This document shows positions 16,290 to 30,959 of a DNA stretch of 64,000 bases, piece after piece. The notes beneath the pieces are model-generated. The model made no database searches and was not told the DNA's origin. It saw only the letters and a list, made by a program, of their open reading frames with translations. The DNA is taken from positions 1 through 64,000 of the forward strand of contig NZ_BONE01000017.1 of NCBI RefSeq assembly GCF_016862555.1, written 5' to 3'. Every line of letters begins with the position of its first letter. Positions within the stretch are counted from its first letter, which is position 1. Origin of the DNA: Asanoa siamensis (GTDB lineage Bacteria; Actinomycetota; Actinomycetes; Mycobacteriales; Micromonosporaceae). The translations under genes and the position numbers were made by a program.

Positions 16290-19200
16290 TCAGTGGACGA
16301 CGAGGTTGCCGCCCGCGAGCCTGATCTCCTGGCTCCTGGCTCCGTTCCACTCGGACGAGTGGAGCAGCGTGCTGCCGTTCCAGAGGGTGATCGCGACCGA
16401 GTCGGCCGTGCCGGGGCTGCCCCGGTCGGTCACCGCCAACCCCAGCGTCAGGCCGCCGGCCACGAGCGTCGGGTTACGCGCGTCGGTGACGTCCGTCAGC
16501 GTGGCCGTCGCGCGGATGTCGGCCCGTTCGACCTGGCTCCCCCCGTCGGACCCGAACGAGTCGAAGGCCGTGCCGCGGATCTCGTACGCGCGTGCTCCAC
16601 TCTGGAACCGCACGGTCGCCGAACCCGTCAGGTCGGTCCCGTTCCTGGCGTACCGGACGTCGAGCGTGACGTCGGTCCGCGCACCGCCGGTCGCGGGATA
16701 GCTGCCGGCGGACCGGAGCCCGCGGACGTACCCGCTGCCGGTGACGGCGCTGCCGTCCGGCCGGGCGACGTCGACCCGGGCGGTGCCGGCGCCCGTGTAG
16801 TAGCCGCCGACCACGGCCGTGACGGTGTGGGCGCCGCGCGGCAGCGGCGCGTCGCACCACGCGGAACCCGTTGTCGGCGCGCCGCCCGTCAGGCCGACCG
16901 GCGCGCTGCACAGCGTCGTGTCACCCTCCTTGAACGTCACCGTGGCGTTGCGGACGTCGCCCGCCGTCCGGTCGGTCGAACCGAGCACGGAGCTGTCCCG
17001 GACGGTCGCCCGCAACCGCACGGTGGTGCCGGAGCCGAGCACGTCGCCGGTGTAGGTCGCCTCGGCGTCCTCCGCGGTCACCGTGACGGTGAAGGAGGTC
17101 GTCCGGGCGACGCCGGCGTCGTCGGTGACCGTGACCGTGACGGGATAGGCGCCGGGTGCGGCCGTCGTGGTCCCGGCGACCCGCCAGGTCCGGCTGCCGG
17201 CGGACGTCGCGGCGACCACGAGTGACAGGCCGGCCGGCAGGCCGGCGGCGGTCGCCGTCAGGCCCGTGCCCGCGGTGTCCGGGTCGCTCGCGCTGACCGT
17301 CATGGTCGGCGACAGGGCGTCACTGTGCTGAACGGTCGCACCGCCCGCCGGCGCGTCGTTCGACACCACCGGAGCCGCCTGTATCGCGATGTCGGCGTCG
17401 TTGAGGTCGAAGAAGACGTTGCCGACCGCCTCGATCCTGATCCGGCCCCGCGTGGTGCCGACGTTCGGCAGCGTGACGGACTCGCTGCCGTCGTTCGCGG
17501 TGCTCTCGGCCAGCACGTGCGGGAAGGTGGCGCCGCCGTCGACGGAGAGCGTGATGCGGACGTCGGTGACCCCGACGGGAGCCACGTCGGTGCCGGCGAC
17601 GTCCCAGCTGATCGCCTGCGCGCTGCCACCCTCCACTGTGGTCGCGGTCGGCTGGGAGGTGACCAGGAAGGGCCCCGCACCGGGCGCGAGGGTGATCGCG
17701 GTCTCCGCGTTGGCGACACCGCCGCCGCCCGGGTGCCCGTCGCGGGCGGTGAGCCGGAAGTGCATCGTCCGGTTGTTGTCGAAGCCGACCCAGTCCGCCG
17801 TGGGCAGGAACTCGGAGTAGCAGTCGCGGACCTCGGGCGAGAGGTTGGAGCCGCCGCTGGTCGGGGGCGGCGGGGCCGGCGGGCAGGTGCCGGTCGCCGC
17901 GTTCGTGTGGCCCGCCGCGATCTGCGCCAGGTCCGGGAAGACCCGGGTCGGATCGGTCGAGACCGCGTTCTCGCCCGGCGAATAGTATTCGAGCGTGTCG
18001 GTCGGGCTGACGATCGCCGCGGTGCCGAACTGGCGGAACAGCGGGCCGTTGGTCTTCACGTTGCTGACGAGCGCGGTGCCGGCCGTGCTGCCACCGGCGA
18101 GCCCGCCACGGTCGTTCTGCTCCCACAGGTAGGTCACCGTGTCGCCCTCGGCGTCGGTGGCGCTGCCGGTGAGCGCGAACGGCGTGCGGACGGGGATCGT
18201 GACGGCGGCCGGGACCGAGACCACCGGCGCGTGGTTGCCGGTCTCCTCGACCACGTTGCCGCCGTTGTCGATCGGGCCGCCCTTGGCCGTCTCTCCGACG
18301 AAGCCCGACGCGCCGACCAGGTTGGACAGAGACAGGGCGCCGACGTTGGTGGCCGCCAGCGGCCCGCCGTTGAACGTGACCTGGAACCCGTCGTCGGTCA
18401 GCACGCCCGTGCCGCCGAACGCCGCCACGGTGACGGTCGTGCCGGCCGGGGCGATCGCCTCGATCGCGGCCTTGATGTCGGCCGTCGTGTAGGTGGTGCC
18501 CCGTACGATGGGCGCCGACTCGACGCCCGCGAGCGCGATGGTGAACGCGTCGCCGGCGGTGTCGAACTCCCGCAACGAGACCGTCTGCACCTCGTTGATG
18601 GCCGGCCGGCTCGACGTGACGTACGTCGTGATCTCGGTGTAGCTGCGCTGCGACCAGTACGGGTCGCTGTGCGGTTGGAGGTCGTCCTGACGGCAGATGC
18701 CCGCGTACGCCATGATGGACGATCCACTGCCCGGCTCCACCGAGTTGGCGGCGCTGCGGTTGCCGCCCGAGCAGTTGACCTGGGTGCCGTTGAACGTGTG
18801 GTTGCCGCCGAACTGGTGCCCCATCTCGTGCGCGACGTAGTCGACCGCGTAGAAGTCACCGACCGGTGTGGGCAGGCCGGTGCAGCCACGTGCCTTGCCG
18901 TCGCCGCCGATGACGCCGAGCCCCGCCACACCGCCGCCCGCGACGCCGAGACCGAGGTGGCCGACGTCGTAGTTGCCGGCGCCGACGAGTTGGCCGAGCA
19001 CGATCCGGTTGCGGTTGAGCGCGCCGCTGGTGCACGCGCTGAGTTGCGACGGCGTGAAGCAGGCCGCGGCACCGCAGGGACCGTTGGGCTCGGTCGCCAG
19101 GGCCGGCGTGTTCAGGTTGGTCTTCTCGGTGTCGTTGATCAGGACCAGCCGGATCGCGGTCTCGTCCTCGTACACCTGCGTCACGCGGTTCATCAGCGTG

Positions 19201-19970
19201 ACCTTCGCGGCGGTCACGTTCTCCGCGCCGAAGAAGGTCGCGTACGACGGGTCGGTGACCAGCGCGACGCGGTAGGTGCGCAGCGACACGGGCGCGCCGG
19301 CCACCGCGGCGACCTCGTCCGCCAGGCCCTCCACCGCCGACGCGACGTCGTCCCGCTCGACGAACTCGCCGTGGCTGTCGGTCAGATCCCGGCCGTAGTA
19401 GCTCGCGTAGAGGCTCTGGTCGCGGTGGTAGTAGGGGTCGACGTACCACGCGCCGTGCGGCGAGCGGACCGACGCGTGGAACCCGAGCGGCGTCAGGTCG
19501 GCCCGGATCGTCGCGGCCGGGTCGTCGATCCCCTTTCCGGCGTACGTCTTGATCTCCGGGTGTCTCGCCGCGAGGCCGGCCTCCATCACCGGCGAGTCGG
19601 CCAGTGCGAAGCGCTGGAAGCCACCGGCGGGCGTGGGCAGCGACACCACCTGAGGCGCCGCGGCGCGCTGCCGCCCGGCCCGCTCGTCGGGCGCCTTGGC
19701 CAACGCCGCGCCCAGGGCGGCCCGGTCGAGGGTGTGGGTGGCGACGCGGTCGGCCCGGACGTCGGGCCGCTGCCCGCCCTTGGTCGCCGCGGGCTTGCCG
19801 GTGACCCGGGTCCAGGGGCCGCTCGGCTCGACCGGGGCGGCGGACGCGGGGGTGGGCGCCAGCATCGGCAGCAGCGCCGCCACGAGCGCGGCGACCACGA
19901 GGGCGGCGAGCCGTCCGCGCCGCCCTCCGTGACCGCCAGGTGGACTGTGGACAAACCGGGTCACGGCCAT
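16290..19970 (-). CDS. Large secreted zinc metalloprotease (reprolysin/M12B-like) with Ig-like repeats
   Basis: A 1226-residue exported protein. After a signal peptide (hydrophobic LAALVVAALVAALLPMLAP, cleavage after ASA) comes a propeptide-like region, then a metzincin catalytic domain with HEMGHQFGGNHTF, residues 381-393, giving the zinc histidines and catalytic Glu382 of the HExxHxxGxxH motif. The C-terminal 600 residues are beta-rich Ig/cadherin-like modules (for example SNDAPAGGATVQHSDALSPT followed by a putative-Ig stretch) that probably bind substrate or cell wall. It is a secreted endopeptidase, monocistronic, convergent with the serine hydrolase. Members of this class are common exoenzymes of actinomycetes and myxobacteria. 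Confidence 0.9.
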   Translation of the reverse strand: MAVTRFVHSPPGGHGGRRGRLAALVVAALVAALLPMLAPTPASAAPVEPSGPWTRVTGKPAATKGGQRPDVRADRVATHTLDRAALGAALAKAPDERAGRQRAAAPQVVSLPTPAGGFQRFALADSPVMEAGLAARHPEIKTYAGKGIDDPAATIRADLTPLGFHASVRSPHGAWYVDPYYHRDQSLYASYYGRDLTDSHGEFVERDDVASAVEGLADEVAAVAGAPVSLRTYRVALVTDPSYATFFGAENVTAAKVTLMNRVTQVYEDETAIRLVLINDTEKTNLNTPALATEPNGPCGAAACFTPSQLSACTSGALNRNRIVLGQLVGAGNYDVGHLGLGVAGGGVAGLGVIGGDGKARGCTGLPTPVGDFYAVDYVAHEMGHQFGGNHTFNGTQVNCSGGNRSAANSVEPGSGSSIMAYAGICRQDDLQPHSDPYWSQRSYTEITTYVTSSRPAINEVQTVSLREFDTAGDAFTIALAGVESAPIVRGTTYTTADIKAAIEAIAPAGTTVTVAAFGGTGVLTDDGFQVTFNGGPLAATNVGALSLSNLVGASGFVGETAKGGPIDNGGNVVEETGNHAPVVSVPAAVTIPVRTPFALTGSATDAEGDTVTYLWEQNDRGGLAGGSTAGTALVSNVKTNGPLFRQFGTAAIVSPTDTLEYYSPGENAVSTDPTRVFPDLAQIAAGHTNAATGTCPPAPPPPTSGGSNLSPEVRDCYSEFLPTADWVGFDNNRTMHFRLTARDGHPGGGGVANAETAITLAPGAGPFLVTSQPTATTVEGGSAQAISWDVAGTDVAPVGVTDVRITLSVDGGATFPHVLAESTANDGSESVTLPNVGTTRGRIRIEAVGNVFFDLNDADIAIQAAPVVSNDAPAGGATVQHSDALSPTMTVSASDPDTAGTGLTATAAGLPAGLSLVVAATSAGSRTWRVAGTTTAAPGAYPVTVTVTDDAGVARTTSFTVTVTAEDAEATYTGDVLGSGTTVRLRATVRDSSVLGSTDRTAGDVRNATVTFKEGDTTLCSAPVGLTGGAPTTGSAWCDAPLPRGAHTVTAVVGGYYTGAGTARVDVARPDGSAVTGSGYVRGLRSAGSYPATGGARTDVTLDVRYARNGTDLTGSATVRFQSGARAYEIRGTAFDSFGSDGGSQVERADIRATATLTDVTDARNPTLVAGGLTLGLAVTDRGSPGTADSVAITLWNGSTLLHSSEWNGARSQEIRLAGGNLVVH

Positions 19971-23853: not shown

Positions 23854-26800
23854 ATGCGCGGGAACCTGGCTGTCGTCGATCTGGTCGAGGCGCCCGGCGC
23901 ACCACTAGCCCCACCCGTCGAGCCGCCGATCGCGCGCACCGGGCCGCCGGCGGCGCTGTACGCCGGCGCAGGCACCCCGCCCGCACGTACCCTCCTGGAC
24001 ATCCTCGCCGAAACCGCCCAGCGGCATCCGTCCGCTCCGGCCCTCGACGACGGTGTCACGCTGCTCACCTACCGCGCCCTCGAAGCCGAGATCGGCGAGT
24101 TGTGCGAGCGGCTCGCCGCGGCCGGGATCGGTGTCGGCGACCGCGTCGGGGTCCGCGTGCCGTCCGGCACCGTCGATCTCTACGTCTCTATCCTCGCGGT
24201 GCTGGCCGCGGGCGCCGCGTACGTGCCGGTCGACGCCGACGACCCGGACGAGCGCGCCGAACTCGTGTTCGCCGAAGCCGACGTGTCCGCCGTCCTCGGA
24301 CCCGACCGCACGCTGACACCGCGCCGCGATCCGCGCGGCGAGGCGCGTCGGCCCGGGCCCGACGACGACGCCTGGATCATCTTCACCTCCGGCTCGACCG
24401 GCCGGCCGAAGGGCGTCGCGGTGACCCACCGCTCCGCGGCCGCGTTCGTCGACGCCGAGGCGCGGCTCTTCCTGACCGACGAGCCGATGGGCCCGGGCGA
24501 CCGGGTGCTCGCCGGCCTGTCGGTCGCGTTCGACGCCTCCTGCGAGGAGATGTGGCTCGCCTGGCGGCACGGCGCCTGCCTCGTCGCCGCGCCGCGCTCG
24601 CTCGTGCGCGCCGGGATGGATCTCGGCTCGTGGCTCGTCGAGCAGCGGATCACCGTGGTGTCCACTGTGCCCACCCTCGCCTCCCTGTGGCCGGCCGAGG
24701 CCCTCGACGACGTGCGGCTGCTCATCTTCGGCGGCGAGGCCTGCCCGCCCGAGCTCGCCGAGCGGCTGGCCGTCGAGGGGCGCGAGGTGTGGAACACGTA
24801 CGGGCCGACCGAGGCCACGGTCGTCGCCTGCGCCGCGCAGCTGACCGGCACGGGTCCGGTCCGCATCGGCCTCCCGCTCGACGGCTGGGAGCTGGCGGTC
24901 ATGGGCCCGTGGGGGCACCCGGCCGCGATGGGCGAGGTCGGCGAGCTCGTCATCGGCGGCGTGGGCCTGGCCCGCTACCTGGACGCCGAGAAGGACGCGG
25001 AGAAGTTCGCCCCGCTGCCGTCGCTGGGCTGGTCGCGCGCGTACCGCAGCGGTGACCTCGTCCGGGCCGAGCCCGAAGGGCTCGTCTTCCTCGGCCGCGG
25101 CGACGAGCAGGTCAAGCTGGGCGGGCGCCGGATCGAGCTCGGCGAGGTCGACGCCGCGCTGCAGGCGCTGCCGGGGGTCGCCGCCGCGGCGGCCGCGGTC
25201 CGCACGACCGGGCACGGCAACCAGCTCCTGGTCGGGTACGTCGTGCCGGCGCCGGACGCCGGGTTCGACCGGACGGCGGCGGTCGACCGGCTGCGCGCCG
25301 CACTGCCCGCCGCGCTGGTGCCGCTGATCGCCGTGGTCGACGGCCTGCCCACCCGCACCTCGGGCAAGGTGGACCGCGCCGCGCTGCCGTGGCCGCTGCC
25401 GGAGCTGGATGCCCCGCAGGCCGGCGAGGAGCTGGAGGGCACGCAGGGCTGGCTGGCCGAGTGCTGGGGCGACATCCTCGGCGTCCCGCCCACCGGCCCC
25501 GACGACGACTTCTTCGCCTCGGGCGGCTCGAGCCTGAGCGCCGCGCAGCTCGTCACGCTGCTGCGCGGCCGTTACCCGAGCGCGTCGGTCAACGACGTGT
25601 ACCAGCACCCGACGCTGCGGGCGCTGGCGCGCCGGCTCGACGAGTTCGAGGCCGCCGAGGCCGCCACGCGCGTCGTGCTCCCGACGCCGCGGCGCACGGG
25701 CATCGCCCAGACCGTCCTGATGCTCCCGCTGCTCGGCGTCGTCGGGCTGCGCTGGGTCGTGGTGCTGGCCGCCGTCAACAACGTCGGCGCCTTCCCCTGG
25801 GCGCCCACCGTGTCCTGGTGGTGGGTGCTGGCCGGCTGGCTGCTGCTGATCAGTCCCCCGGGCCGGATCGCGCTCGCGGCCGGCGGCGCCCGCCTGCTGC
25901 TGCGCGGCCTGCGGCCCGGCAGCTACCCGCGCGGCGGCGCTGTCCACATGCGACTGTGGGCCGCCGAACGGCTGGCGGCGTCGAGCGGCGCGACCAACCT
26001 CGCCGGCGTCTGGATCACCTGGTACGCCCGCGCCCTCGGCGCGAAGATCGCGGCGGGCGTCGACCTGCACTCCCTGCCACCCGTGACCGGCATGCTCCGC
26101 ATCGGTCAGGGCGCGGCGGTCGAGCCCGAGGTGGACCTCTCCGGGCACTGGGTCGACGGTGACGTGGTGCACGTCGGGCGGATCCGGATCGGGGCCGGCG
26201 CGACGGTCGGTGCGCGCAGCACGCTGCTGCCCGGCGCGCGGATCGGCAAGCGGGCCGAGATCGCACCCGGGTCGGGCGTGGTCGGCTCGGTGCCCGCGGC
26301 GGAACGGTGGGCCGGTGTCCCCGCGAGCCGCTCCGGCCGGGCGGCCCGCCGCTGGCCGCAGGAGCGCCCCGGGCGGGCGGCGCGGTGGACCCTCGCGTAC
26401 GGGCTGACCTCGCTCGTGCTCGGCTTCCTCCCCGCGATCGCGGCCGTTCCGGCGCTGCTGGTGCTCGGCTGGTTCGTGCGCGACGCCGCCACGCTGCCGG
26501 CCGCCCTCGGCCAGGCGCTGCTCGGTGTGCCGCTCGCGACCGTCGCGGCGATGACCGCGTACGCGCTGCTGATCCTGGTGTTCGTGCGGGCGCTCAGCGT
26601 CGGCCTGCGGGCCGGTCACCACCCCGTGCACGGGCGGGTCGCGTGGCAGGCGTGGGCGACCGAGCGGCTCATGAGCCTGGCCCGGGTGGGCCTGTTCCCG
26701 CTCTACGCGAGCCTGTTCACGCCCGTCTGGCTGCGCGCGCTCGGCATGCGGGTCGGCCGCCGGGTCGAGGCGTCGACGGTCCTCGCGGTGCCGGCGATGA

Positions 26801-27783
26801 CCACCGTCGGCGACGGCGCGTTCCTCGCCGACGACACCATGGTCGCCTCCTACGAGCTGGGCGGTGGCTGGCTGCGGCTCGGCGCCGCCCGCGTCGGCAA
26901 GCGGGCGTTCCTCGGCAACTCGGGCATGACCGCACCTGGCCGGGCCGTGCCGAACCGCGGACTCGTCGGCGTGCTGTCGGCGACCCCGAAGAAGGCCAAG
27001 GCGGGCAGCTCCTACCTCGGCATGCCGCCGATGCGGGTGCCGCGCGCCGTGGACGAGGGCGACCAGAGCCGGACGTTCGACCCGCCGAACCGCCTGATGC
27101 TCGCGCGCGCCGCCGTCGAGCTGTGCCGGGTCGTCCCGGTCATGTGCGCGGTGGCGCTGGCCGTCCTCACCCTCGCGGCGTTCGAGGCCCTCGCCAACGG
27201 GTACGGGTACGCCGCCGCGCTGGTCGCGGGCGGTCCGCTGCTGCTCGCCGCCGGCCTCGTCGCCTGCCTGGTCACCGCCGGCGCGAAGTGGCTGCTGGTC
27301 GGGGCGTTCCGGGCCGGCGAGCGCCCGCTGTGGAGCAGCTTCGTCTGGCGCAACGAGCTCGCCGACACGTTCGTCGAGGTGCTGGCGGTGCCGTGGCTCG
27401 CCGGCTCGGTCGGCGGCACCCCGCTGATGAGCCTGTGGCTGCGGGCCCTCGGCGCGCGGATCGGGCGGGGCGTCTGGTGCGAGAGCTACTGGCTGCCGGA
27501 GACCGACCTGATCCGCATCGGCGACGGCGCGACCGTCAACCGCGGGTGTGTCGTGCAGACCCACCTGTTCCATGATCGGATCATGCGCATGGACCAGGTG
27601 ACTCTCGAGGAGGGCGCCACGCTCGGCCCGCACGGGATCGTGCTGCCCGGCGCGGCGGTGGGGGCACACGCCACGGTCGGACCGGCGTCGCTGGTCATGC
27701 GCGGCGAGACCGTGCCGGGCGGCGGCCGGTGGCTGGGCAACCCGATCGCGGCGTGGCCGGCGGACCGGACCCGCCGCGGGTGA
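23854..27783 (+). CDS. Pls/PosA-like single-module NRPS (A-PCP-membrane domain), candidate poly-lysine-type synthetase
   Basis: A 1309-residue protein. Residues about 40-520 are an adenylation domain (IIFTSGSTGRPKG; NTYGPTEATVV; SGKVDR). The carrier domain follows with phosphopantetheine Ser560 in GGSSLSAAQ. There is no condensation or thioesterase domain; instead the rest contains about six hydrophobic segments and three left-handed beta-helix-like segments, which is the layout of epsilon-poly-L-lysine synthetase (Pls) and relatives. By alignment to the GrsA pocket I read the specificity residues as D-A-E-S-I-G-T-V-V-K, one change from the lysine code as I remember it. It probably activates lysine or another basic amino acid and links it into an isopeptide homopolymer at the membrane. 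Its stop overlaps the M1 peptidase start. Confidence 0.88.
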   Translation: MRGNLAVVDLVEAPGAPLAPPVEPPIARTGPPAALYAGAGTPPARTLLDILAETAQRHPSAPALDDGVTLLTYRALEAEIGELCERLAAAGIGVGDRVGVRVPSGTVDLYVSILAVLAAGAAYVPVDADDPDERAELVFAEADVSAVLGPDRTLTPRRDPRGEARRPGPDDDAWIIFTSGSTGRPKGVAVTHRSAAAFVDAEARLFLTDEPMGPGDRVLAGLSVAFDASCEEMWLAWRHGACLVAAPRSLVRAGMDLGSWLVEQRITVVSTVPTLASLWPAEALDDVRLLIFGGEACPPELAERLAVEGREVWNTYGPTEATVVACAAQLTGTGPVRIGLPLDGWELAVMGPWGHPAAMGEVGELVIGGVGLARYLDAEKDAEKFAPLPSLGWSRAYRSGDLVRAEPEGLVFLGRGDEQVKLGGRRIELGEVDAALQALPGVAAAAAAVRTTGHGNQLLVGYVVPAPDAGFDRTAAVDRLRAALPAALVPLIAVVDGLPTRTSGKVDRAALPWPLPELDAPQAGEELEGTQGWLAECWGDILGVPPTGPDDDFFASGGSSLSAAQLVTLLRGRYPSASVNDVYQHPTLRALARRLDEFEAAEAATRVVLPTPRRTGIAQTVLMLPLLGVVGLRWVVVLAAVNNVGAFPWAPTVSWWWVLAGWLLLISPPGRIALAAGGARLLLRGLRPGSYPRGGAVHMRLWAAERLAASSGATNLAGVWITWYARALGAKIAAGVDLHSLPPVTGMLRIGQGAAVEPEVDLSGHWVDGDVVHVGRIRIGAGATVGARSTLLPGARIGKRAEIAPGSGVVGSVPAAERWAGVPASRSGRAARRWPQERPGRAARWTLAYGLTSLVLGFLPAIAAVPALLVLGWFVRDAATLPAALGQALLGVPLATVAAMTAYALLILVFVRALSVGLRAGHHPVHGRVAWQAWATERLMSLARVGLFPLYASLFTPVWLRALGMRVGRRVEASTVLAVPAMTTVGDGAFLADDTMVASYELGGGWLRLGAARVGKRAFLGNSGMTAPGRAVPNRGLVGVLSATPKKAKAGSSYLGMPPMRVPRAVDEGDQSRTFDPPNRLMLARAAVELCRVVPVMCAVALAVLTLAAFEALANGYGYAAALVAGGPLLLAAGLVACLVTAGAKWLLVGAFRAGERPLWSSFVWRNELADTFVEVLAVPWLAGSVGGTPLMSLWLRALGARIGRGVWCESYWLPETDLIRIGDGATVNRGCVVQTHLFHDRIMRMDQVTLEEGATLGPHGIVLPGAAVGAHATVGPASLVMRGETVPGGGRWLGNPIAAWPADRTRRG

Positions 27784-29081
27784 ACGCCAAGGCGGAGCCG
27801 TACCTCGCGAGGCACGGCAACACCGGCTACCGGACGACGCACTACGACCTCGACCTGGACTACCGGGTCGGTCCCGCCCGGCTCGCCGGCCGCGCGACGA
27901 TCTCCGCCGTCGCCGACCGTACGCTCCCGGAGATCAGCCTTGATCTCGGCATCTTCCGCGTCGACCAGGTGCTGGTCGACGGCGTGGCGGCCCGGCACAG
28001 CCACCGTGCCGGCAAGCTGCGGATCCGTCCGGCCCGGCCCCTGCCGGCCGGTGCGCCGTTCACGGTCACGGTGCGCTACGCGGGCACGCCCAAGCCGATC
28101 CCCAGTCGCTGGGGCGACCTCGGGTGGGAGCGGCTCGACGACGGCGCGCTGGTCGCGAGCCAGCCGACGGGCGCGCCGTCCTGGTTCCCGTGCAACGACC
28201 ACCCGGCCGACAAAGCCAGTTATCGGATCGCGGTGACGGCACAGGCGCGGCACACCGTCGTCGCCAACGGGCGCCTCGCGTCACGCGAGACCCGGGCCAA
28301 CAGAACCACCTGGGTGTACGAGCAGCCGGCGCCGATGCCCACCTACCTCGCCACCGTCCAGATCGGACGGTACGCCCTGGTCGACCTCGCCGCCGGCCCG
28401 GTGCCGCAGCGCGCGGCCGTGCCGCCGCGGCTGGTCAGCCCGATGGCGCACGACTTCGCCCGACAGCCGGAGATGATGACGACCTTCGCGCGCGTCTTCG
28501 GGCCGTACCCGTTCGGCGAGTACGCCGTCGTCGTGGTCGACGAGGAGCTCGAGGTGCCGGTCGAGGCGCACGGACTGTCGATCTTCGGCGCCAACCACGT
28601 CGACGGGCGCCGCGGGTCCGAGCGCCTCGTCGCCCACGAACTCGCGCACCAGTGGTTCGGCAACAGCCTGACCGTGGCCGACTGGCGCCACATCTGGCTG
28701 AACGAGGGCTTCGCGAAGTACGCGGAGTGGCTCTGGTCGGAGCTGTCCGGCGGTGAGCCGGCCCGGGTGCACGCGGCCCGGTCGCGGCGCCTGCTGGTCG
28801 GCCTCCCGCAGGACCTGCGGGTGGCCGACCCGGGGGAACGGCGCATGTTCGACGACCGGGTCTACCAGCGCGGCGCCCTGACCCTGCACGCCCTGCGCCT
28901 GGCGATGGGCGACGCGACGTTCTTCGCGCTGGTACGGGACTGGTCGCGCACCCACCAGCACGGCACGGTGACCACGGAGGCGTTCACGACGATGGCGCGC
29001 CGCCACACGGCCGTGCCGCTCGACGCACTGTTCACCGCGTGGCTGTACGAACCGACCCTGCCGCCGGCGAATCCGTCCTGA
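27780..29081 (+). CDS. M1-family zinc aminopeptidase, coupled to the NRPS
   Basis: A 433-residue metallopeptidase with HELAHQWFGNS (His286, Glu287, His290) and the third ligand Glu309 in WLNEGF, the HExxH-18-E motif of M1. The usual GAMEN exopeptidase motif is replaced by a degenerate EAHGLSIFG. GTG 27780 overlaps the NRPS stop by 4 bases; the longer frame would run into the NRPS gene. In epsilon-poly-lysine producers the polymer-degrading aminopeptidase is, as I recall, an M1-type zinc enzyme, so the pair suggests polymer turnover or self-protection. No signal peptide is evident. The function is inferred from family and position. Confidence 0.88.
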   Translation: MNAKAEPYLARHGNTGYRTTHYDLDLDYRVGPARLAGRATISAVADRTLPEISLDLGIFRVDQVLVDGVAARHSHRAGKLRIRPARPLPAGAPFTVTVRYAGTPKPIPSRWGDLGWERLDDGALVASQPTGAPSWFPCNDHPADKASYRIAVTAQARHTVVANGRLASRETRANRTTWVYEQPAPMPTYLATVQIGRYALVDLAAGPVPQRAAVPPRLVSPMAHDFARQPEMMTTFARVFGPYPFGEYAVVVVDEELEVPVEAHGLSIFGANHVDGRRGSERLVAHELAHQWFGNSLTVADWRHIWLNEGFAKYAEWLWSELSGGEPARVHAARSRRLLVGLPQDLRVADPGERRMFDDRVYQRGALTLHALRLAMGDATFFALVRDWSRTHQHGTVTTEAFTTMARRHTAVPLDALFTAWLYEPTLPPANPS

Positions 29082-29169
29082 GGGAGTCAGCCTCGATCAC
29101 GCCGACGGCTGACGCGCCGGGCCCGGTGCTACGGTGGTTGCGGTTGACGGACAAGCAGGGAGACGAGAC

Positions 29170-29199
29170 ATGGTGGGTGACGACGACATCTCCGGGTGA
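29170..29199 (+). CDS. Possible 9-residue leader peptide before ABC-F genes
   Basis: ATG at 29170 with GGGAG 7 bases upstream opens a MVGDDDISG reading frame that stops at 29199. A candidate promoter (CTGACG 29109-29114, TACGGT 29130-29135) lies before it and a hairpin after it. Leader peptides that sense stalled ribosomes are known before antibiotic-resistance ABC-F genes; the assignment is tentative. Confidence 0.35.
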   Translation: MVGDDDISG

Positions 29200-29215
29200 G
29201 ACCGGACATGTGACC

Positions 29216-29253
29216 GGCCACCGGCCGCGCCTGTGAGCGCGATCGCCGTGGCC
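29216..29253 (+). promoter_or_regulatory. Candidate attenuator hairpin upstream of ABC-F genes
   Basis: GGCCAC (29216-29221) pairs with GTGGCC (29248-29253), and inside it GCGC pairs with GCGC around CTGTGA. A pyrimidine-rich CTTTCGTCGTTTC follows, as in an imperfect intrinsic terminator. It lies between the short reading frame at 29170 and the ABC-F start, so it could be opened by ribosome stalling. Confidence 0.45.
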
Positions 29254-29333
29254 CTTTCGTCGTTTCTCGAGGCCATGTCCCCCTGTCGGGCGGCCAGCGT
29301 CCGCCTGCCCTCACATCCGAGGTTGCTTCTCCG

Positions 29334-30959
29334 ATGTCCGATGCGTTCATCGTCTGCTCGAACCTGACCTTCTCCTGGCCGGACGACACACCGGTCTTCC
29401 AGAACCTGTCCTGCACCATCGGTGGCGGCCGCACCGGGCTGGTCGCGCCGAACGGTGCCGGAAAGAGCACATTGCTCAAGCTGATCGCCGGCGAGTACCG
29501 GCCCAGCGCCGGGTCCGTCTCGGTCCAGGGCGTGCTCGGCTACCTTCCGCAGAGCCTGCCCCTGGTCGGTGACCTGACCGTGGCCGAGGTCCTCGAGATC
29601 GCTCCGCTGATCCGGGCGCTGCACGCCATCGAGTCCGGCGACGCCGCCGAGGAGCACTTCACCACGATCGGCAACGACTGGGACATCGAGGAGCGGACCC
29701 GCGCCCAGCTCGACCGGCTGGGCCTGCGCGACCTCGCCTTCGACCGGCGGCTGCACACGCTCAGCGGCGGCCAGGTCGTCTCGCTCGGCCTGGCGGCGCA
29801 GCTGTTGAAGCGGCCCGACGTCCTGCTGCTGGACGAGCCGACCAACAACCTCGACCTCGCGGCCCGGCACCAGCTCTACGACGTGCTGGAGCAGTGGAAC
29901 GGCTGCCTGCTGCTGGTCAGCCACGACCGGGCGCTGCTCGACCGGATGGACCGCATCGCCGAGCTCGACCGCGGCGAGGTCCGGCTCTTCGGCGGGAACT
30001 TCACCGCGTACGAGGCGTCGGTGCGGGCCGCGCAGGAGGTGGCGGAGAAGAACGTCCGCAACGCCGAGCAGGAGCTCAAGCGCGAGAAGCGGGAGATGCA
30101 GGAGGCCCGCGAGCGGGCGGCGCGGCGGGCCAGCAACGCCTCCCGCAACCTCAAGAACGCCGGCCTGCCGAAGATCTTCGCCGGCACCATGAAGCGGGAC
30201 GCGCAGGAGTCCGCGGGCAAGGCGAACGAGACGCACTCCGCGCGCGTCAACGAGGCCAGGGCGCGGCTCGACGAGGCGGGGCGGGCGCTGCGCAACGAGC
30301 AGAAGTTGTCGTTGGAGCTGCCCGACACGAACGTGCCGGCCGGCCGCACGCTGGTCACCGGTGCGGGCCTGCGGGTGCGGTCGCTGTTCGCCGGCGACGG
30401 CGTCGACCTGACGATCCGCGGGCCGGAACGGATCGCCCTGCTCGGCCCCAACGGCGCCGGCAAGTCCACCCTGCTCCGTCTGGTCAGCGGCGATCTGGCG
30501 CCCGAGGGCGGCCAGGTCAAGCGCGCCGACGGCCGCGTCGCGTACCTGTCGCAGCGGTTGGACCTGCTGGATCTCGACCGCACCGTGGCCGAGAACCTGG
30601 CCGCGTTCGCGCCGCGGACCCCGGACGCGCAGCGGATGAACCTGCTCGCCCGCTTCCTGTTCCGCGGTCCCCGCGCCCACCTGCCGGTCGGCGTGCTCTC
30701 CGGCGGCGAGCGGCTGCGCGCCACCCTGGCCTGCGTGCTCGGTGCCGAGCCGGCGCCGCACCTGCTGCTGCTCGACGAGCCGACCAACAACCTCGACCTG
30801 GTCAGCGTGGGCCAGTTGGAGAGCGCACTGCACGCGTACGAGGGCGCGCTGCTGGTGGTCAGCCACGACGAACGGTTCCTCACGGAGATCAAGGTCGACC
30901 GCTGGCTCCGGCTCTCCGACGGGCGCCTGCTGGAGACCGGCGCACCGGACGTCGACTGA
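29334..30959 (+). CDS. ABC-F family ATPase (ribosome-associated), first of tandem pair
   Basis: A 541-residue soluble protein with two ABC domains and no membrane segment. Walker A motifs are PNGAGKST near residue 39 and GPNGAGKST near 365; signatures are TLSGGQVVSLGL and LSGGERLRATLA; both Walker B boxes end in DEPTNNLDL. The linker between domains (about 220-320) is long, charged and helical (EKNVRNAEQELKREKREMQE), as in ABC-F proteins that insert into the ribosomal E site. Such proteins relieve ribosomes stalled by antibiotics or adjust translation. The 252-base leader with a possible leader peptide and attenuator fits drug-inducible expression. The exact drug class cannot be predicted. 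Confidence 0.9.
   Translation: MSDAFIVCSNLTFSWPDDTPVFQNLSCTIGGGRTGLVAPNGAGKSTLLKLIAGEYRPSAGSVSVQGVLGYLPQSLPLVGDLTVAEVLEIAPLIRALHAIESGDAAEEHFTTIGNDWDIEERTRAQLDRLGLRDLAFDRRLHTLSGGQVVSLGLAAQLLKRPDVLLLDEPTNNLDLAARHQLYDVLEQWNGCLLLVSHDRALLDRMDRIAELDRGEVRLFGGNFTAYEASVRAAQEVAEKNVRNAEQELKREKREMQEARERAARRASNASRNLKNAGLPKIFAGTMKRDAQESAGKANETHSARVNEARARLDEAGRALRNEQKLSLELPDTNVPAGRTLVTGAGLRVRSLFAGDGVDLTIRGPERIALLGPNGAGKSTLLRLVSGDLAPEGGQVKRADGRVAYLSQRLDLLDLDRTVAENLAAFAPRTPDAQRMNLLARFLFRGPRAHLPVGVLSGGERLRATLACVLGAEPAPHLLLLDEPTNNLDLVSVGQLESALHAYEGALLVVSHDERFLTEIKVDRWLRLSDGRLLETGAPDVD

Follow-up and report, generated by a model that had tools for sequence, protein, structure and literature searches.

The window analysed here is a 64,000-nucleotide stretch of contig NZ_BONE01000017.1 from Asanoa siamensis (assembly GCF_016862555.1; source genome 8.78 Mb). 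On its forward strand lie a pls-like gene (23854..27783) and, overlapping its stop codon, a gene for a PldII-type M1 zinc peptidase (27780..29081), with third-position GC of 0.96 and 0.94, respectively. By sequence, the first gene encodes a Pls/PosA-family nonribosomal peptide synthetase of 1309 aa, with a start at ATG 23854 that is backed by the Asanoa hainanensis homologue, which aligns from residue 1.

Domain architecture of the synthetase

The N-terminal half of the protein comprises an adenylation (A) domain (24007..25386, + strand; residues 52–511) and a peptidyl carrier protein (PCP) domain (25450..25638, +; residues 533–595; PF00550, E 8.7e-14). PF00501 matched residues 52–374 of the A domain (E 8.1e-62), with AMP-binding_C at 22.0, below its cut-off of 24.5. 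The serine located within GGSSL of the carrier domain is presumably the phosphopantetheine attachment site. The remainder (25705..27747, +) forms the Pls/PosA terminal part, the putative membrane and polymerising portion: residues 618–1298 matched the NCBIfam model TIGR02353, Pls/PosA family, over its full length (model positions 2–695) with 757.4 bits against a cut-off of 423.1. The Pfam matches comprise one AMP-binding domain, one PP-binding domain and a hexapeptide repeat; neither a condensation nor a thioesterase domain is among them. The open reading frame and these matches agree with the preliminary description of the locus, which had proposed a single-module A-PCP-membrane layout lacking both of the latter domains.

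Hydropathy analysis of the terminal part revealed six peaks arranged in three pairs; two further peaks lie in the A domain and are not membrane helices. An AlphaFold model of residues 605–1309 (pLDDT 91.3, pTM 0.91; input alignment of 47 of the 49 listed rows) shows long helices followed by a ladder of short strands forming a beta-helix, repeated three times. This agrees with the published model of the PosA C-terminus, with six helices and three beta-helices (PMC10522769). Adenylation and carrier domains without condensation or thioesterase domains, joined to three helix-pair/beta-helix units, are among the features expected of a Pls, and all are present here. Structural and profile matches of the terminal part (50 Foldseek and 60 profile rows shown) were mostly hexapeptide-type proteins, among them acyltransferases and gamma carbonic anhydrases, and covered little of the query; in the Foldseek rows the query TM-scores were 0.10–0.15. 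No solved Pls membrane part was among these rows.

Adenylation pocket and predicted monomer

The best PDB match of the window A domain was 7WEW, which we take to come from Streptomyces albulus, with 68% identity over 490 columns (residues 27–517, E 1.9e-201). 7WEW is the A domain of an epsilon-poly-L-lysine synthetase (PMC10522769). Aligned on GrsA, whose corresponding stretch was checked against 1AMU, the window pocket reads DAESIGTVVK, the same ten residues as previously proposed. They had been placed one change away from the lysine code; this part does not hold, since all ten positions equal those of 7WEW. The earlier identification of the enzyme as Pls-type is borne out by A-domain and pocket identity to 7WEW, by full coverage of the TIGR02353 model and by placement in the Pls clade.

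The pocket is widely shared. Within the first 94 loci compared, 93/93 Pls matches carry DAESIGTVVK, a count that includes the window locus twice and two other records twice. Of 63 rows in another set that partly overlaps the first (GrsA, 7WEW and the window not counted), 56 carry DAESIGTVVK, two carry DAESVGTVVK (L114 and L123), and five are distant paralogues with other codes. The latter (L124–L128), from Micromonosporaceae and with ~30–35% identity, carry DFEYLGTVTK, DFEYMGTVTK or DFECLSVVTK and have no M1 neighbour.

These comparisons bear on whether the monomer might be another diamino acid, such as ornithine, beta-lysine or diaminobutyrate, so that the polymer would not be poly-lysine. 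Enzymes of the same layout do use other monomers: PosA, a delta-poly-L-ornithine synthetase, belongs to the same family as the window Pls and shares 36% identity with the epsilon-poly-L-lysine synthetase in the A-domain core (PMC10522769). However, the window pocket equals that of 7WEW throughout, the code given for a beta-lysine enzyme is DGESISVVNK (PMC10522769), and the family members with divergent codes are the distant, peptidase-free paralogues described above. We regard a monomer other than lysine as highly improbable.

The coupled M1 peptidase

The peptidase gene encodes 433 aa with PF01433 and PF17900 matches. Its frame is open from GTG 27729, and the fitting start is GTG 27780, which overlaps the synthetase TGA by 4 bp in the sequence GTGA (27780..27783, +; offset −4). 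The zinc motif HELAH lies at 28635..28649 (+), a position checked on the sequence. The claim that an M1 zinc peptidase gene follows directly, coupled by GTGA, is confirmed by the reading frame, Pfam and the 4-bp overlap. By sequence, its closest solved relative is 6A8Z, a short M1 zinc metalloprotease that we assume to be from Deinococcus (E 3.9e-53, 474-residue chain).

To place the pair among its relatives, we use 80 named loci, the best 80 of at least 591 matches, a sample that favours the window's own clade. An M1 gene lies downstream of pls on the same strand in all 80, with its nearest possible start −13 to +96 nt from the pls stop; the overlap is 4 bp in 32 loci, 13 bases in 17 and a single base in seven. 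The zinc ligands (two His and the second Glu), the catalytic Glu, the Tyr and the GAMEN-like Glu are retained in every one of these loci and in all ten rows of the S. albulus clade, two of which are one record. Because the TIGR02353 score is far above its cut-off and the gene order is the same in all 80 named relatives, the two-gene arrangement is not a chance finding.

This arrangement is already known from two systems. In S. albulus, pldII adjoins pls with a 4-bp overlap in a single operon (PMC4361855), and is described as a translationally coupled aminopeptidase gene of 1404 bp whose product is located outside the membrane (PMC9223678). Beside pls in Streptomyces sp. NBC_01454 (L158), which falls in the clade of 7WEW, is a gene of 1404 bp with a 4-bp overlap, annotated as an M1 family metallopeptidase; we liken it to pldII because its length equals that published and its annotation is M1. 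The window resembles S. albulus pls–pldII in domain order, in the pocket of 7WEW, in the 4-bp overlap and in its related M1 peptidase, with S. albulus itself compared through 7WEW only and otherwise through close relatives. It differs in that its Pls lies in a sister clade, with 57–60% identity to the sampled S. albulus-clade Pls proteins, and its peptidase, 49% identical to the NBC_01454 protein, lacks the twin-arginine signal of the S. albulus-clade PldII.

A pls–peptidase operon outside Streptomyces has likewise been published for Corynebacterium, and the pls of Corynebacterium variabile yielded epsilon-poly-L-lysine in culture extracts of S. coelicolor (PMC8117764). Here the likeness to the window rests on the published description rather than on sequence; the site of action of the Corynebacterium peptidase is not discussed in the Results and Discussion of that paper. 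C. glutamicum, an expression host in the same work, itself has a TIGR02353 match above the cut-off (control genome). The reading of the window genes as a Pls-type synthetase with an M1 partner therefore stands, while its standing as a new prediction does not, the arrangement having been published in both cases (PMC4361855; PMC8117764).

Published work disagrees on the role of PldII. Repression by CRISPR interference changed growth and product (PMC9223678); the contrary report is weighed below. The model in the same paper places two PldII zinc ions at D44, T45, D173 and K174, a misfit with the conserved HExxH-E zinc site of the M1 proteins compared here.

Phylogenetic placement and distribution

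In the Pls tree, a clade of 52 rows including 7WEW and the window stands apart from five distant Pls/PosA paralogues with other pockets, in line with the Pls-clade membership that had been put forward as a check. Within it, 12 rows group with 7WEW (the S. albulus clade) and 40 with the window, the two groups being sister clades. The tree was built by a quick method with a midpoint root, includes 7WEW by its A domain only and omits PosA and other characterised enzymes; L127, L128 and L150 were flagged as long and L122, L125–L128 and L150 for composition. Among the matches listed, the closest named relative is that of A. hainanensis (L003, 86%). The synthetase occurs in five of six Asanoa genomes, the window's included (absent from G002), and its presence is patchy across many genera.

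The linked peptidases also group together. All 39 sampled pls-linked M1 rows, the window's among them, form one clade (support 100/100) containing none of the 28 sampled unlinked paralogues; both sets are samples, and matches without an assigned locus were not used. On the basis of this single clade in the midpoint-rooted tree, independent recruitment of M1 genes was rejected. The window peptidase falls with PldII, as expected from its earlier description as an M1 enzyme of the poly-lysine-degrading type, where PldII is taken as an M1 enzyme from the annotation and length of the NBC_01454 neighbour.

A survey of 200 Micromonosporaceae genomes identified 62 with a PldII-type match (E ≤ 1e-110) and 95 with a Pls/PosA terminal domain. 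Sixty-one of the 62 PldII-type matches lie within 400 nt of a terminal domain, and the other (G035) is 491 nt away. By the 400-nt rule, 44 of 105 terminal domains, that of G035 included, have no PldII-type partner; many of these score lower, although G903, G034 and G886 each have a high-scoring one that lacks a partner.

The gene could, alternatively, be a housekeeping aminopeptidase that merely shares a transcript with pls. M1 paralogues are common, and the window's genome holds five other matches, one of them a 39-residue fragment (L165); three entered the tree, the fragment and a partial match of 31% (L164) being left out. Against such a role stand the exclusive clade of linked peptidases and the location of every PldII-type match in the survey no more than 0.5 kb from a Pls/PosA terminal domain, and we judge it very unlikely.

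Two forms of the linked peptidase

Peptidases of the S. albulus clade carry an N-terminal twin-arginine (RR) motif and a hydrophobic segment in 9/9 distinct loci (L110 and L155 being one record), with 13-residue hydropathy of 1.54–1.92. The linked peptidases of the wide clade to which the window belongs show neither RR nor a hydrophobic stretch in any of the 80 named loci (maximum 1.22), and the window peptidase itself gave −0.65 and −0.33. Hydropathy was read from the start and over as many as 60 in-frame codons ahead of it, which rules out an upstream start that would give the window peptidase a signal. In a phylum-wide sample of 22 loci, some of which may duplicate strains among the named loci, 20 had an M1 gene and all 20 gave values of at most 1.15. 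The measure does detect signals, since a hydrophobic N-terminal stretch was found in 28/28 unlinked M1 paralogues (≥1.77).

The same division runs through the synthetases. The Pls tree splits as the peptidase signal does, and in three genomes that contain both kinds of Pls (L113/L114, L118/L119 and L120/L121), each copy lies beside its own kind of peptidase. Our literature search, whose reach did not extend to the original description of PldII, found no paper on a split between exported and non-exported peptidases; the pls–pldII pairing itself is already known. Because it has no signal peptide, the window peptidase is most likely cytosolic, and the window probably holds the common form of the pair.

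Proposed function

From the family assignment, pocket identity, architecture, gene overlap, kinship with PldII and absence of an export signal, all observed computationally, we infer the monomer, the polymer, its cleavage by the peptidase, the cytosolic site and a purpose. The A domain would activate L-lysine and load the carrier domain, and the membrane part would link lysines by way of their epsilon-amino groups, giving a short cationic polymer, epsilon-poly-L-lysine. Cleavage of this polymer would fall to the coupled M1 zinc peptidase, a putative PldII orthologue. Working beside the synthetase on the cytosolic side, this enzyme might clear polymer that is retained in the cell or comes back to it, and so return lysine. 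We assign a probability of about 0.78 to the pair being such a Pls–PldII unit, which makes epsilon-poly-L-lysine and cuts it, most likely in the cytosol. The peptidase may serve to guard the cytosol, to recycle lysine or to run a store.

Several points weigh against this interpretation. In PMC8117764, no epsilon-poly-L-lysine was obtained from C. variabile culture or from C. glutamicum expressing its pls, and a review reports that inactivation of Pld and PldII affected neither production nor chain length (PMC8506220). We found no published enzyme assay or polymer detection for close relatives of the window pair, and a literature search for Asanoa with poly-L-lysine returned no papers. The window Pls lies beside the S. 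albulus clade and not inside it, in a tree without the C. variabile Pls, and the M1 tree carries a long-branch warning where unlinked rows join linked ones. In place of a trained predictor, our own hydropathy measure and the RR motif served to judge export. In addition, 20 of 154 Pls-type loci have no M1 call: L103–L108 were taken around the A domain with too little DNA and L124–L128, L134 and L151–L154 are distant paralogues, but L116, L122, L140 and L156 are Pls copies without a nearby M1 gene and represent real exceptions within the downstream DNA examined. L116 and L122 belong to the S. albulus clade.

The absent export signal also raises the question of where the polymer is handled. In the wide clade it might serve as an intracellular store of lysine and nitrogen, built up by Pls and drawn on through the cytosolic peptidase, and not as an antimicrobial released from the cell. 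Cyanophycin and cyanophycinase offer a comparison for such a polymer store and its mobilising enzyme. The uniform lack of a signal in the 80 named loci, whereas the S. albulus clade exports, is in keeping with a store, as are the matched copies in the three dual-Pls genomes, the patchy presence in many genera and the finding that none of eight neighbouring genes recurs in more than one of the 80 loci (flanks up to 8 kb). However, the neighbour test took only the window's own neighbours, and a gene common to other loci could escape it. Pls is moreover membrane-bound, and S. albulus secretes its polymer; the enzyme from Corynebacterium yielded epsilon-poly-L-lysine in S. coelicolor culture extracts (PMC8117764), and we found no report of intracellular polymer. 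A store is therefore possible but, in our estimate, rather unlikely.

More broadly, and with equal reserve, most actinobacterial Pls–M1 pairs might represent an intracellular poly-lysine cycle rather than antibiotic producers with outside self-protection, the exported S. albulus form being a departure; membrane synthetase and cytosolic peptidase would then fill and deplete an isopeptide store, or limit the polymer. We consider this generalisation, taken as a whole, doubtful. The consistent contrast between exported and non-exported partner peptidases offers a direct way to test if the polymer acts as a weapon outside the cell or is dealt with inside. Epsilon-poly-L-lysine serves as a food preservative, and the present findings place Asanoa and other Micromonosporaceae among the candidate producers. 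In actinobacteria such as C. variabile, pls genes occur without a seen product (PMC8117764).

Genomic neighbourhood and additional observations

Neighbour recurrence does not support a larger cluster around the pair. Of the eight neighbours tested, the glycoside hydrolase family 19 chitinase (L003, 92.9%), the major facilitator superfamily protein (L018, 32%) and the ABC-F protein (L067, 50%) each recur in a single named locus; the metallopeptidase, a mycothiol-type enzyme, a Crp-type regulator and two unknowns recur in none of the 80, within flanks of up to 8 kb. The metallopeptidase is a large reprolysin-type protein of 1226 aa with Ig/PKD-like repeats (16290–19970, − strand). ARAGORN detected no tRNA in the window, and no Rfam family matched it at gathering score.

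The Rhodococcus opacus B4 plasmid pROB01, typed as mobilizable, carries a Pls with the lysine pocket and without an M1 partner (L156), flanked by a MarR-type regulator on one side and small hypothetical genes on the other; phosphate-transport genes follow after a few kb. Pls matches were also found on plasmids of Mycobacterium avium and M. intracellulare.

Downstream of the peptidase lies an ABC-F ribosome-protection-like gene (29334–30959, +), which scored 379.4 bits against the NF000355 cut-off of 380. Ahead of it (region 29130–30959, +), a short open reading frame, MVGDDDISG, could be a translation-attenuation leader; the leader fold is weakly better than shuffled sequences (z −1.4).

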